Source: Prochlorococcus sp. AG-402-M23 (GTDB lineage: Bacteria > Cyanobacteriota > Cyanobacteriia > PCC-6307 > Cyanobiaceae). From it: a DNA stretch of 56,666 nucleotides. Of the stretch, positions 36,501 to 41,234 are shown one piece after another. The notes beneath the pieces were generated by a model. The model did no database searches. It was not told the origin of the DNA and saw nothing but the letters and a program-made list of their open reading frames with translations. The stretch's first letter is position 1. Each line of letters starts with the position of its first letter. The stretch lies in NCBI GenBank assembly GCA_003216575.1, contig QCIR01000010.1:1-56666 (forward strand). Reading direction: 5' to 3'. The translations under genes and the position numbers were made by a program.

Positions 36501-38510
36501 TTATTTAAAGCCTTTTCTTCCTTGGAAATTATCTAAACGACTTTCGCTTCTCATCTTGAATTTTAATTTAATCCAGCTTAGTGCTATTGGAAATCCTACA
36601 GTTACTGGTATGAGGAATAAAAAAGGTCTATTAGTAGAAGCAAGTAAAGCTGAGGATATTGCAAGCGAGCCTAGGAGAACAGAATTACCTAATGATTGCT
36701 GGGCATTAATCATTCTTCTGAGTTGTCTGTCTGATTCACCCATTCGCACTTGAAGTTGCAAGTCGCCTTGTTCCAGTCTTTCTAAATTTTCATCCAAGCG
36801 TTTAGGTAACCCAACAGCTTTACTTCCTATTTCAGTAACTTGTCTTCCTAATTCATTGAATAAGTCATTAGAGTCTGGATTCTTTGAGGTCATTAGAGGG
36901 AGAAGGAAGGGTTTTGCTATTGCTATTAAATTAAATTCTGGGTCTAAATATCTTCCAACTCCTTCAAAAGTTGAGAGTGCTCTAAAAACAAAAATCAACT
37001 CTATTGGTATTCTAAAGGGTTTTCCATAAGCCAGTTCTGATATGTCCCCAGATAACTTTTCTATAATTTGAGAATCAAATGGAGGAGTGAGAGCTTCATT
37101 TAACATTATTCTTATTAATCGTCTAACTGGACCTATTTCGATATCTTTTTCTATTAATCCAGCGATTTGAAGTTCTTTGACTAATCCACTGACATCTCTC
37201 AGGGCTGCGGCTTTGATCATTGAATTAAGTCTGCCTCTAATCCTCTCTGAGACAAAACCCATCATCCCAAAATCATAGTAAATAAGAGAACCCCCCTTGG
37301 AAACAGCTAGATTGCCGGGATGAGGGTCAGCATGGAAAAAACCATAATTAACCAATTGTTTTAAATAACTTGTGGCTCCAATCTTTGCGATTAAAGAAGT
37401 ATCAATGTCATTGCTCTTTAGAGATTTAATATCATTTATCTTGATTCCTGGTAAATACTCTAAACATAAAATTCTACTGGTGCTTAATTCCCAAAATACA
37501 CTCGGTATTAAAATATTTGAGTCATCTATAAATTGTTGTTTAAATCTTGCAGCATATTGAGCTTCAATTCGAAAATCTAGCTCTCTGAGTAATACTCTCT
37601 TAGATTCTTTTGCAATGCCTACCCAGTCATTCCCTCGGCTTAGTGATTTTATTCTTTGAACTACTTTTGCTGAACGAACTGCCAATACTCCAGAGGAAGA
37701 GCGGGGATAATCCTTAATAACTCCACAATCTCCTACAGCAAACAACTCAGGATAATTAAGGACTTGAAGAGTTTTTTTTGTTAAAATTCTCCCTTTCACA
37801 TCTATAGGCAAACCACTATCTTTTATCCAATCAAATGATTCATTACCGGTACATAATAATGTTGGATATAAAACAGATGTATTCTTTTGTGTAATCTCAA
37901 TTTTTGAAGCCTTTAAATTTCTTAATAGATTTTTATTAATTTTTCTTCCAGGTTGAACCTTTAAAAGAATAGATCTTTGAGGCCATCTTTTTCTTAAAGA
38001 AAAAGCTATTTCTATTCCAGCGAATCCACCACCAATAATTACAAATGGGTTTGCCAAAGAATCATACTTGTGTATATCCTGAGCGATAATGAATTTATAT
38101 GATTCAGAAAAAGGTTTAATTGGAACAGCTAAATCTTTTTCCCCTCTAATGAAAGATTTAGAATTTAAGTTAGTCTTTGCTCCTATATTCAAGGATAAAA
38201 AAGAATATTCAATTTCTGGACGACCTTTTAAGAGTAATTTTTTTTTCTCAAAGTTAATACCCTCAATTTCTGCCATCACGAATGAAACACTTGCTTTCGA
38301 AGCAAGGCTCCTCAAATCAATTAGAATTTCATCAATTTTGTATTTACCTGCTACGACACCTGGAAACATCCCAGAATAGATAGTTGTACTTGATTGATTG
38401 ACCAATGTAATCATTCCAGCAGGCCTCAACTTTGGATTCATCGCCCATCTGAGAAGAACAAGGGCATGAGTATGACCACCACCAGCTAGAACAAGATGAT
38501 CACTCAGCAT
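36501..38510 (-). pseudogene. chimeric frame: N-terminal FAD-dependent NADH dehydrogenase-like domain (SelD-associated type) fused to the C-terminal part of an ABC1/UbiB kinase
   Basis: 669 residues from ATG 38510. Residues 1 to about 290 are a pyridine-nucleotide-disulfide-type FAD domain (LVLAGGGHTHALVLLRWAM, FVIIGGGFAGIEIAFSL, LFAVGDCGVIKDYP). In marine picocyanobacteria this domain normally precedes a selenide,water dikinase (SelD) domain in one protein. From NDWVGIAKESKRVLLRELDF onward it is an ABC1/UbiB kinase. That part has the HADPHPGN catalytic motif, a DFG and two C-terminal membrane helices, but lacks the KxGQ and Ala-rich nucleotide loops of the kinase N-lobe. Both partners are thus incomplete, and SelD is absent. 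The switch lies near 37640-37690. The simplest reading is an in-frame deletion joining two neighbouring genes. A real fusion protein is possible but would probably lack kinase activity. Confidence 0.8.
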
Positions 38511-39428
38511 GATTTTTTGAATATTTCTGGAGCACAATCAGATGCCAATGATTTTAAACAAGCTAGATTAGGAATTATTGGGGGAAGTGGTCTATATGAA
38601 ATAGACGACTTAGAAAATATAGTCGAATTAAGCTTAGACACTCCATATGGCAAACCCTCTAACAAATTACTAATTGGCAATCTATTTGGGATAGAGATTG
38701 TTTTTCTAGCTCGCCATGGAGAAAACCATACTTTAAATCCAAGCGAAATTCCATATCAAGCAAATATCTGGGCTTTGCGCTCTCTAAATGTTAGATGGTT
38801 AATTTCAGCATCAGCAGTGGGTTCGTTAAAAGAGAGAATCAAACCTTGCGATATTGTTATACCTGATCAATTCATTGATCGTACTCATCAAAGACCATTG
38901 ACTTTCTTTACTAATGGAGTTGTAGCCCACATAAGCATGGCAAATCCTTTTTGCGAGATTGTATCTGAAATACTTGCCCAAGAAGTAGAAAAACTATTAA
39001 CCAAAGAAAAAAAATTGCACATAGGAGGAACTTACCTGGCAATGGAAGGACCAGCATTTTCAACAAGAGCAGAATCAAACTTATATCGAGATTGGGGATG
39101 TTCAATAATAGGAATGACAAACCATACTGAAGCAAGATTGGCAAAAGAAGCTGAAATAGCTTACTCAAGCCTATCTATGGTGACTGATTACGATTGTTGG
39201 AATCAAAATTGCGAAAGTGTATCCGTCGATATGGTTATTCAAAACCTTCAAGAAAATGCAAATTTTGCAAAATCAATAATCTCTGCTGCTGCTAAAAGAA
39301 TCTCAAATTCAAGGCCCTCAAGCTCTTTTCATGATGCATTAAAGGATGCACTAGTAACGTCTCAAGAGCATATTCCAGATAAAACTAAAAAGAAAATCAG
39401 CATATTTACTAGCAAGTATTGGCTTTAA
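38496..39428 (+). CDS. mtnP: S-methyl-5'-thioadenosine phosphorylase
   Basis: Phosphorolyses methylthioadenosine to adenine and methylthioribose-1-phosphate. About 300 residues of the purine nucleoside phosphorylase family. Motifs: ARLGIIGGSGLYEID, FLARHGENHTLNPSEIPYQANIWAL (phosphate site), SASAVGSL, YLAMEGPAFSTRAES and the adenine-recognising GMTNHTEARLAKEAEI. From ATG 38496 it would overlap the divergent FAD-domain gene by 15 bp; TTG 38517 (LNISGAQSD) removes the overlap and may be the true start. Followed by a shared hairpin terminator before psbJ. Confidence 0.9.
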   Translation: MITQHDFLNISGAQSDANDFKQARLGIIGGSGLYEIDDLENIVELSLDTPYGKPSNKLLIGNLFGIEIVFLARHGENHTLNPSEIPYQANIWALRSLNVRWLISASAVGSLKERIKPCDIVIPDQFIDRTHQRPLTFFTNGVVAHISMANPFCEIVSEILAQEVEKLLTKEKKLHIGGTYLAMEGPAFSTRAESNLYRDWGCSIIGMTNHTEARLAKEAEIAYSSLSMVTDYDCWNQNCESVSVDMVIQNLQENANFAKSIISAAAKRISNSRPSSSFHDALKDALVTSQEHIPDKTKKKISIFTSKYWL

Positions 39429-39503: not shown

Positions 39504-39701
39504 CTAACCAGCGTTACCAATACCAGTATATGAACCATAAAAGAAAATACCAAGAACAAAAATCACAGCTGTTCCACCTGCAGTAGCTACTAACCACAAA
39601 GGAAGTGCCCCTTCTGTCCACCGTCTTTCCCAGGAGATTGCAGGACGGCCATCGGGTAGACGATCTCCTACTCGTCCATCAGGTCCTTTTAATTTGCTCA
39701 T
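39504..39701 (-). CDS. psbJ: photosystem II reaction centre protein J
   Basis: A small PSII subunit next to cytochrome b559 that affects QB-site electron flow and assembly. 65 residues with an N-terminal extension typical of marine picocyanobacteria ([19 protein letters not shown]). One membrane helix follows ([20 protein letters not shown]), then YGSYTGIG at the end. It is the last gene of the psbE-psbL-psbJ run. Confidence 0.95.
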
Positions 39702-39712
39702 GATAAAGAGAT

Positions 39713-39832
39713 TTAGTTAAAGAAGTAGCTGGAAAAAAGAATTCCCATTACAAAAACAAGTAAGAGTCCAAGATAAAGACTTGTTCGGTTTAATTCAACC
39801 GGAACCTTATTTGGATTTGGATTGACTTGCAT
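39713..39832 (-). CDS. psbL: photosystem II reaction centre protein L
   Basis: A 39-residue PSII subunit near QA. The minus-strand translation from ATG 39832 begins [20 protein letters not shown]. One membrane helix ([18 protein letters not shown]) follows, ending in N and then TAA at 39713-39715. It lies 11 bp upstream of psbJ. Only 29 bp separate it from the psbE stop, where psbF would normally lie. Confidence 0.95.
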
Positions 39833-39861
39833 GGATAAAAAAGCAATCAGATGAAATTGGG

Positions 39862-40110
39862 TTATTTCAGACGTGTATCTAGTTCAGCCTTGGAATCAAA
39901 GCGCTGTACTACAACAGGAGCTTTGCTTTCTCCAGCCTGAAAATACGTATCTGGTCTAGGAGTTCCAAAAGCGTCATAGGCAAGCCCAGAAGACACAAAT
40001 AGAAATCCTGCCACGAAGATCGCAGGAAGTGCCACAGCATGGATGATCCAATAGCGGACACTAGTAATGATCTCAAAAAACGGGCGTTCCCCGGTAGAGC
40101 CGGCAGCCAT
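39862..40110 (-). CDS. psbE: cytochrome b559 alpha subunit
   Basis: The larger of the two cytochrome b559 chains of PSII. 82 residues, complete: [20 protein letters not shown] carries the haem-ligand His (H24) in its single helix, and the lumenal tail includes [14 protein letters not shown] and ends [13 protein letters not shown]. It follows ycf48 by about 107 bp. Haem binding also needs the His of PsbF, which is missing from this operon. Confidence 0.96.
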
Positions 40111-40217: not shown

Positions 40218-41234
40218 TCAGCCCTGCCATCTCAATAAATTCCCCCTTTCTCCAAAGACAAATCCTTTAGTACTGCCAGTATTAAAATTGTCCATAAATA
40301 GAATTCTTATGAAATTTGTCGGAACAGAATCACCAACTGGGTCTTGTTTCCAAGTTTTACCAGCATCATTACTTACTAATAAAGTTCCATTGCCTCCAGC
40401 TGCCCAAATTGACTCAGCAGGGCCCCAAACAAGATCTTGATAGTTATATCCGTTTACGATTGGGATTATGGGCTTAGACCAAGAGTCGATATCTTTAGAA
40501 TCTGCGTTAAATCGAATCTCTGCTCCCCTTGAAAGCATCCACAAATCACCATTTGGTTGCTCACCCACACTTTGGACTCTCTTGCTGCTTGCTCTTTGAT
40601 GAGGGATCCAAGTCTCCTGATCAGGATTTAGAACAGAGAAAAAATTACCAAGACTGCTAACACTTATATATCCTCCATTATTTGTACGTCTCAATTCTCT
40701 TATGCCTCCTGATCCAGAAGTATCAACTACTAATGCTTCCCAATTTATTCCGCCATCTGTTGTTTTATAAATTGCTCCTGCAGTAGTGGCTAATTCAGCA
40801 GAATCGGAGTCAATTGTTGTTATCAAATATGGATCTCCAGGCAACTTATTTCCAAGATCAAGACGAATCCAGTTTTTACCTCCATCTGTTGTATGAAGAA
40901 TCAATCCTGGTTGTCCTGCAATCCAACCTTCTTGCTCTTTAAAATCAATACTTATAAAACGAAAATTCCCCTCGCTTGGGATATCCAAATTTCTTTCATT
41001 CCAAGTAATTCCTCCATCATTTGTCTCTAAAATCAACCTATCTGTTCCAACTAGAAAACCATTTTTATCATCTACAAAATCAATATCTAATGGATTTGCT
41101 GCGGTATCTAGGTCAACCTGAGACCATGGACTTGATGTCCCCATATCAGCATTGCTAACCGTGCATCCGCTTAGAGCTACTCCAACTATTAAGACAAAGC
41201 TCAAATTAATGAGATTAGAAAACAAGCGTTTCAT
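40218..41234 (-). CDS. ycf48: photosystem II assembly/stability factor Ycf48 (HCF136)
   Basis: A lumenal beta-propeller that helps insert pD1 and assemble the PSII reaction centre. 338 residues. The N-terminus is a lipoprotein signal with lipobox ALSGC (Cys at 24). Repeated BNR-like blades contain GGITWNER, DGGKNWIRL, DGGINWEAL and DAGKTWKQD. It lies directly upstream of psbE and overlaps the rubredoxin stop by 4 bp, the conserved rubredoxin-ycf48-psbE order linked to PSII assembly. Confidence 0.95.
   Translation of the reverse strand: MKRLFSNLINLSFVLIVGVALSGCTVSNADMGTSSPWSQVDLDTAANPLDIDFVDDKNGFLVGTDRLILETNDGGITWNERNLDIPSEGNFRFISIDFKEQEGWIAGQPGLILHTTDGGKNWIRLDLGNKLPGDPYLITTIDSDSAELATTAGAIYKTTDGGINWEALVVDTSGSGGIRELRRTNNGGYISVSSLGNFFSVLNPDQETWIPHQRASSKRVQSVGEQPNGDLWMLSRGAEIRFNADSKDIDSWSKPIIPIVNGYNYQDLVWGPAESIWAAGGNGTLLVSNDAGKTWKQDPVGDSVPTNFIRILFMDNFNTGSTKGFVFGERGNLLRWQG

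Follow-up and report, generated by a model that had tools for sequence, protein, structure and literature searches.

A long-form PsbF homologue without the haem-ligand histidine in Prochlorococcus genomes that lack psbF

What takes the place of the cytochrome b559 beta chain in a Prochlorococcus genome whose psb operon runs from psbE straight to psbL? The window analysed here (56,666 nucleotides) is the whole of contig C10 from G000, a draft genome of 1.68 Mb, and carries on its minus strand psbE (39862..40110; the alpha chain, TIGR01332, 118 bits against a cut-off of 93.95), psbL (39713..39832; NF001972, 96.7 bits against 74) and psbJ (39504..39701; NF002722, 96.5 bits against 57). Between psbE and psbL, at the usual position of psbF, lie exactly 29 bp (39833..39861, minus strand). 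Upstream of psbE is a gene that we take, from its sequence and position, to be ycf48-like (HCF136; 40218..41234, minus strand), and the convergent neighbour on the other side is presumably a methylthioadenosine phosphorylase-like gene (mtnP; 38496..39428, plus strand); both served as tree markers. A sequence-only reading of the window had reported the 29-bp spacer, the absence of psbF from operon and contig, and a PsbE that keeps its haem histidine, and all three hold: the coordinates agree (psbE from 40110 to 39862, psbL from 39832 to 39713), PF00283 (cytochrome b559) matches psbE alone over the whole contig and no psbF, and the PsbE histidine is present in the motif RYWIIH. A psbF hidden in the spacer can be rejected, as 29 bp offer no room for it.

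The genome is an 88% complete draft in 69 contigs, and a contig of such a draft could have lost psbF through an assembly or binning error. We give this explanation almost no credence, since the same junction of 27–29 bp occurs in all 11 loci examined in genus g1 (29 bp in ten, 27 bp in one), six of them from single-contig genomes. Because the short spacer recurs in every one of these loci, the order psbE–psbL–psbJ without psbF is a fixed trait of g1, which we take to be Prochlorococcus low-light clade I, and not a local assembly error. A b559 profile search found canonical psbF in none of 40 g1 genomes (36 same-genus genomes, the window's own, and G147, G276 and G334), a count for which the incomplete G013 and G029, with no b559 match at all, are uninformative. 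The b559 model matches at most two places per g1 genome, psbE and, partially, a longer reading frame (26 of 37), and G147, G276 and G334 show the same two places. All seven g1 genomes that are at least 99% complete (the single-contig G002, G011, G019, G025, G032 and G033, together with G147) have exactly psbE and this long form.

The distribution of psbF was mapped on a tree of 40 genomes built from six proteins encoded beside psbE, that is, from one linked region; several forks of this tree are open, and mtnP was not found in five of the 40 rows. Thirty of the genomes hold psbF inside a psbE–psbL interval of 152–188 bp. The ten that lack it comprise a clade of g1 and its sister genus g35 (support 95/88), a sub-clade of g25, presumably the high-light group of Prochlorococcus (G300, G404, G336 and G426; support 93/92), and G352 of genus g60. 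At minimum this distribution takes three changes of psbF state, which we assume to be losses and not gains. The psbE–psbL spacers differ, with 27–29 bp in g1 and 34 bp in G097 of g35, 103–114 bp in the four g25 genomes (L313–L316) and 2 bp in G352. No frame of the interval contains an FTVR motif in any of the ten psbF-less genomes, and no other psbF remnant is left there as judged by eye. The 2-bp junction, from which psbF is missing, was recorded at L173 / L326 of G352, an 84% complete draft.

The remainder of the window's genome yielded no canonical psbF and one PsbF homologue, a 97-aa protein on contig C4 (G000:C4:20607-20900), and the seven g1 genomes of at least 99% completeness likewise encode a 97-aa long form as their sole other PsbF homologue. 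The sequence-only reading had stated that cytochrome b559 would lack its beta chain unless psbF had been moved; the proviso was apt, whereas the cell without the chain was not borne out. The long form passes NF002717 (173.4 bits against 153, residues 3–97 aligned to positions 2–97 of 97), the canonical beta model TIGR01333 (64.0 bits against 61.15) and PF00283 (36.8 against 30), and the high-light form of L144 stays under the TIGR01333 cut-off (54.4 against 61.15). Its architecture is not that of canonical PsbF, a single helix of about 45 residues with its gene between psbE and psbL. The PsbF model covers C-terminal residues 59–92 of a protein with two predicted helices, for which AlphaFold2 gives a weak model (helices 3–26 and 65–93, pLDDT 62.8, pTM 0.36). 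Relative to canonical PsbF (TIGR01333/PF00283), the long form is homologous over about 35 residues and keeps the arginine adjoining the haem site, but differs by a change of the haem histidine to asparagine, a change of a nearby tryptophan to threonine (G291 keeps the tryptophan), a fused N-terminal helix and a position outside psbEFLJ. The gene family is already known by name to annotators: the window protein is a member of NF002717, which with NF002720 bears the length-based NCBIfam name ‘cytochrome b559 subunit beta, long form’, and the entry names are silent on the lost ligand and on PsbY.

The order sample lists 26 g1 genomes. Of these, 23 have the long form, which was not found in the incomplete drafts G015, G021 and G022; in G028 it is seen in part only. 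It was also found in the psbF-less G300 and G404, and not in the psbF-less drafts G336, G426 and G352 (77–86% complete). In genomes of five related genera (g25, g26, g27, g29 and g43) it coexists with a normal psbF. The presence of a PsbF homologue on contig C4 might be taken to mean that an ordinary psbF had merely moved to another contig, but this is highly improbable: the C4 protein has an extra helix, its 97 residues include no histidine, and the same gene is present as an additional copy where a genus has psbEFLJ intact. Plain relocation thus fails, as the C4 gene is a fused two-helix paralogue with asparagine for the haem histidine. Compared over 30 PsbF-domain codons with 14 other genomes, G000 shows 14–21 synonymous but 0–3 non-synonymous codon differences, an imbalance that marks the long form as a protein under constraint, not a copy in decay.

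Three further observations concern the long form. A gene of 133–137 aa (MEFGFKE[IV]LFGLAGVSMIAWA...) adjoins it in divergent orientation in g1 and g35 (L002:694-1107, minus strand; L136:2165-2566, plus strand); similar genes occur in genomes of the high-light group, and the protein has no Pfam match in L002 and L136 and no NCBIfam match in the L002 copy. In G118 (two contigs, 100% complete) the long form alone was found, and psbE and psbF are absent from the b559 search, probably through a gap between the contigs. A phage-borne long form was considered and rejected: a scan of IMG/VR returned one locus (L298), a short chance match as judged by eye, in an unrelated phage gene that is probably structural.

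Canonical PsbF of the relatives reads FTVRWLAVHALG or FTVRWLALHTLG where the long form reads FTVRTLAVNALG, with asparagine at the position of the haem-ligand histidine. All 19 aligned long forms, drawn from eight genera, have this asparagine. It also occupies the position in 80 of 80 named-record loci (TAAVN in 47, TLAVN in 32 and TAAIN in one; 76 titled Prochlorococcus and four ‘Synechococcaceae’), which are the best 80 of 242 confirmed loci, ordered by their similarity to an asparagine-bearing query; canonical PsbF may be among the other 162. The PsbF-domain arginine is kept in all 19 aligned long forms. On the alpha side, all 11 g1 PsbE examined, which comprise three distinct sequences, keep the haem-site residues His23, Tyr19, Arg8 and Arg18 (numbered as in T. 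elongatus). The sequence-only reading had checked the histidine of PsbE, and rightly found it kept; the one that is gone belongs to the beta side, beyond its view.

Where does the additional N-terminal helix come from? In profile–profile comparison with hhalign, the N-terminus of the long form matches Prochlorococcus/Synechococcus PsbY at 88.6%, compared with at most 2.3% for the control profiles PsbL, PsbJ, PsbE and NdhC, and the highest score among 100 PsbY profiles with shuffled columns was 15.1, below the 29.9 of the direct comparison. Searched against the PDB, the N-terminal profile has two PsbY chains as its best matches, both weak (E values of 0.02 and 0.03). An intermediate is provided by five genomes (G173, G260, G287, G329 and G345) that encode a short stand-alone protein of the type MDFRLLIVLAPIVASVAWTAFWLFRWGVF: a profile of four of the five, aligned, matches the long-form N-terminus at 99.3% and PsbY at 95.9%, and Pfam PsbY matches all four aligned modules (best 3.6e-6), at least one of them above the family cut-off (25.7 bits against 24). 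Single long forms are more distant, with four of 19 matching Pfam PsbY at E ≤ 10 (best E value 0.0036), none of those tested passing the PsbY family cut-off, and NF009711 scoring 15.0 and 13.4 bits against 48 on two of the three scanned. The helix shares with PsbY (PF06298) the start [FL]-[RK]-x-[LIV]-[LIV]-V-x-x-P-[IV], and differs in that the Asn-Ile helix end of PsbY is replaced by a WLxxW segment, present in 18 of 19 aligned long forms and read as TLxxW in the remaining one (G291). Profile comparison thus shows the N-terminal helix to be, as far as such comparison reaches, a PsbY-derived module. As a separate observation, a 61-aa stand-alone PsbY-like module with WLxxW lies 12–14 bp downstream of the long-form gene in three high-light-group genomes (L144:1678-1863, plus strand; L145:1307-1492, minus; L150:1290-1475, minus); that of L144 matches the long-form model at 2.8e-6 and no Pfam family.

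A PsbF and a PsbY segment in one chain have a structural counterpart. Chain F of PDB 7ymi, which with 7ymm we take to be from Acaryochloris marina, matches PsbF at residues 10–47 and PsbY at about 62–80 (E value 1.6e-4), and because a single solved photosystem II chain matches both, the two seats can be joined covalently. The Acaryochloris chain resembles the long form in this union, but its order is PsbF then PsbY and it keeps the haem histidine (RWLAVHTLG), whereas the long form runs from PsbY to PsbF. PsbY crosses the membrane from the lumenal to the stromal side and PsbF in the opposite direction, and given this topology both orders of fusion are geometrically sensible. According to the part of PMC4823308 drawn on here, PsbY adjoins PsbE and PsbF in photosystem II.

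The stand-alone psbY gene is also missing from many of the genomes concerned. The Pfam PsbY model, run on 33 genomes with a match in 20, finds none in eight of eight tested g1 genomes nor in G097, G300 and G404, and is matched in all 14 of those tested that have psbF together with the long form; G291 and G176 are without a match as well. With a Prochlorococcus/Synechococcus profile at E ≤ 0.001, psbY was found in none of 12 g1 genomes, two g35 genomes, four psbF-less high-light genomes and G352, with marginal matches at 0.06 in G000, 0.07 in G031 and 0.04 in G352. This sensitive profile gives E values of at most 1e-18 in all six genomes examined with psbF and the long form, four of which contributed rows to it, and of at most 5e-11 in G312, G363, G387 and G423, none of which contributed. 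In the five genomes described below in which PsbE carries glutamine and psbF is kept, a match below 0.001 is found in G345 only and is a variant module. Losses of psbF and psbY are not strictly tied, with G176 and G409 keeping psbF while showing neither a long form nor a psbY match below 0.1. On the tree, three independent contrasts bear on joint loss; psbY follows psbF in an average of 2.4 of them and in none takes the opposite course, and these contrasts are too few for significance. In the part of PMC3091678 drawn on, psbY is among the predicted LexA targets of six Prochlorococcus strains and not of NATL1A/NATL2A; this list fits the absence of psbY and is no test of it.

We consider it likely, from sequence comparison, that the fusion takes the seat of PsbF and leaves g1 with a cytochrome b559 that has at most one histidine ligand, from PsbE. 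The long form would be a PsbY–PsbF hairpin, its PsbY part running from lumen to stroma, followed by a stromal loop of about 40 residues and a PsbF part running back from stroma to lumen, and would occupy both neighbouring seats in photosystem II. The fusion would have made stand-alone psbF and psbY dispensable, after which both may have been lost. The long form could, conversely, act elsewhere and not be a core subunit, with the PsbF seat empty or filled by PsbE as an alpha–alpha dimer. An accessory role is conceivable in the five genera that hold it beside a normal psbF, and it is encoded apart from the psb operon, yet Prochlorococcus lives by oxygenic photosynthesis and in g1 the long form is the sole PsbF homologue found. 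Its PsbF domain is nearly invariant, and genomes in which it occurs alone lack both of the genes that it resembles, psbF and psbY. We regard a non-core role as unlikely.

A reciprocal change is found in PsbE. In five genomes (G173, G260, G287, G345 and G403) the PsbE histidine is replaced by glutamine (FWVIQ; for example, L321:4257-4502, minus strand, in G173 and L324:4415-4660, plus strand, in G345), the adjoining Arg18 is lysine in four and aspartate in G345, and the operon PsbF keeps its histidine (FTVRFFAVHALG). On the tree these genomes group together, with weak support (79/88), among the family's genera and, from this placement, are taken to be Prochlorococcus. Four of the five encode the stand-alone PsbY-like protein with WLxxW; it was not found in G403, a 79% complete draft. 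An amide-substituted subunit and a WLxxW module thus co-occur in both groups, in cis in one and in trans in the other.

Whether the haem is still held in the cytochrome b559 of g1 is, from sequence, close to an even call. In the haem-retaining reading the PsbE histidine would hold it, with the other face open to asparagine or water; such a mono-histidine cytochrome would be a low-potential form and may bind small ligands. Histidine/asparagine haem ligation exists in an oxygen-binding bacterial cytochrome c. Retention is favoured because the PsbE histidine, Tyr19, the arginines near the propionates and the PsbF-domain arginine are invariant in g1, and because both lineages took amide side chains. 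The other reading, to which we assign a somewhat smaller chance, places the long form equally in the PsbF seat and makes b559 a pure scaffold without haem. One ligand is gone, the PsbE-glutamine clade also changes Arg18 beside its lost histidine, and the T. elongatus alpha-chain mutants H23A and H23M assemble active photosystem II with apo-b559, as stated in the parts drawn on of PMC9214863 and PMC4709441. Without haem, however, drift would be expected at the PsbE haem site and at the PsbF-domain arginine, which are unchanged in 11 of 11 g1 PsbE and 19 of 19 long forms, and the replacement is always an amide among the sequences examined (asparagine in PsbF, glutamine in PsbE). That asparagine does not appear in the list of the PMC4709441 passage drawn on is counted against our best explanation.

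In the parts of PMC4709441 and PMC9214863 drawn on, laboratory mutants of the b559 haem ligands in Synechocystis, Chlamydomonas and T. elongatus have one of the two histidines changed, as in the long form, but they are engineered and most are without photosynthetic growth, whereas the change in g1 is natural and genus-wide. Whether the b559 haem is needed, and for what purpose, is a long-standing open question, approached in the literature covered through engineered mutants most of which are unable to live photosynthetically, and the portion drawn on of a 2025 review finds no consensus on the redox role of cytochrome b559 (PMC12661325). The lost ligand and a PsbY–PsbF fusion in Prochlorococcus are unmentioned in the portions covered of PMC4823308, PMC5451487, PMC2663038, PMC9214863, PMC4709441, PMC12661325, PMC3091678, PMC5126843, PMC10161378 and PMC8066212. 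A search outside subscription journals and preprints gave no text on the absent ligand, on PsbY as the source of the helix, on psbF and psbY being lost together or on the PsbE-glutamine group, which is weak evidence of novelty.

Genus g1 would thus offer a natural b559 replacement that is fixed across the genus, in a phototroph of ecological dominance, and a case in which subunits fuse and genes are lost within a photosynthetic membrane complex of high conservation. The findings would also show that two residues regarded as fixed are open to replacement. In sister lineages the two versions coexist within a single genome, so the haem question is addressable in wild-type cells, and Prochlorococcus has cultured strains. 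More speculatively, and with appreciable doubt on our part, Prochlorococcus lineages may have abandoned the bis-histidine b559 more than once and by both routes, one through the PsbF histidine-to-asparagine change with loss of psbF and the other through the PsbE histidine-to-glutamine change. The WLxxW PsbY module would join in cis with the asparagine-bearing PsbF or in trans beside the glutamine-bearing PsbE, giving a histidine/amide b559 whose open, ligand-binding haem face might be a redox site for oxygen, superoxide or plastoquinol suited to dim or low-oxygen water.

As an observation apart from these lineages, G038, a cyanobacterium of another family, has a normal psbE and psbF and in addition encodes a divergent second PsbE-like protein that keeps the histidine (FSFWKLHVINIP; L343:1141-1449, minus strand, on G038:C550).
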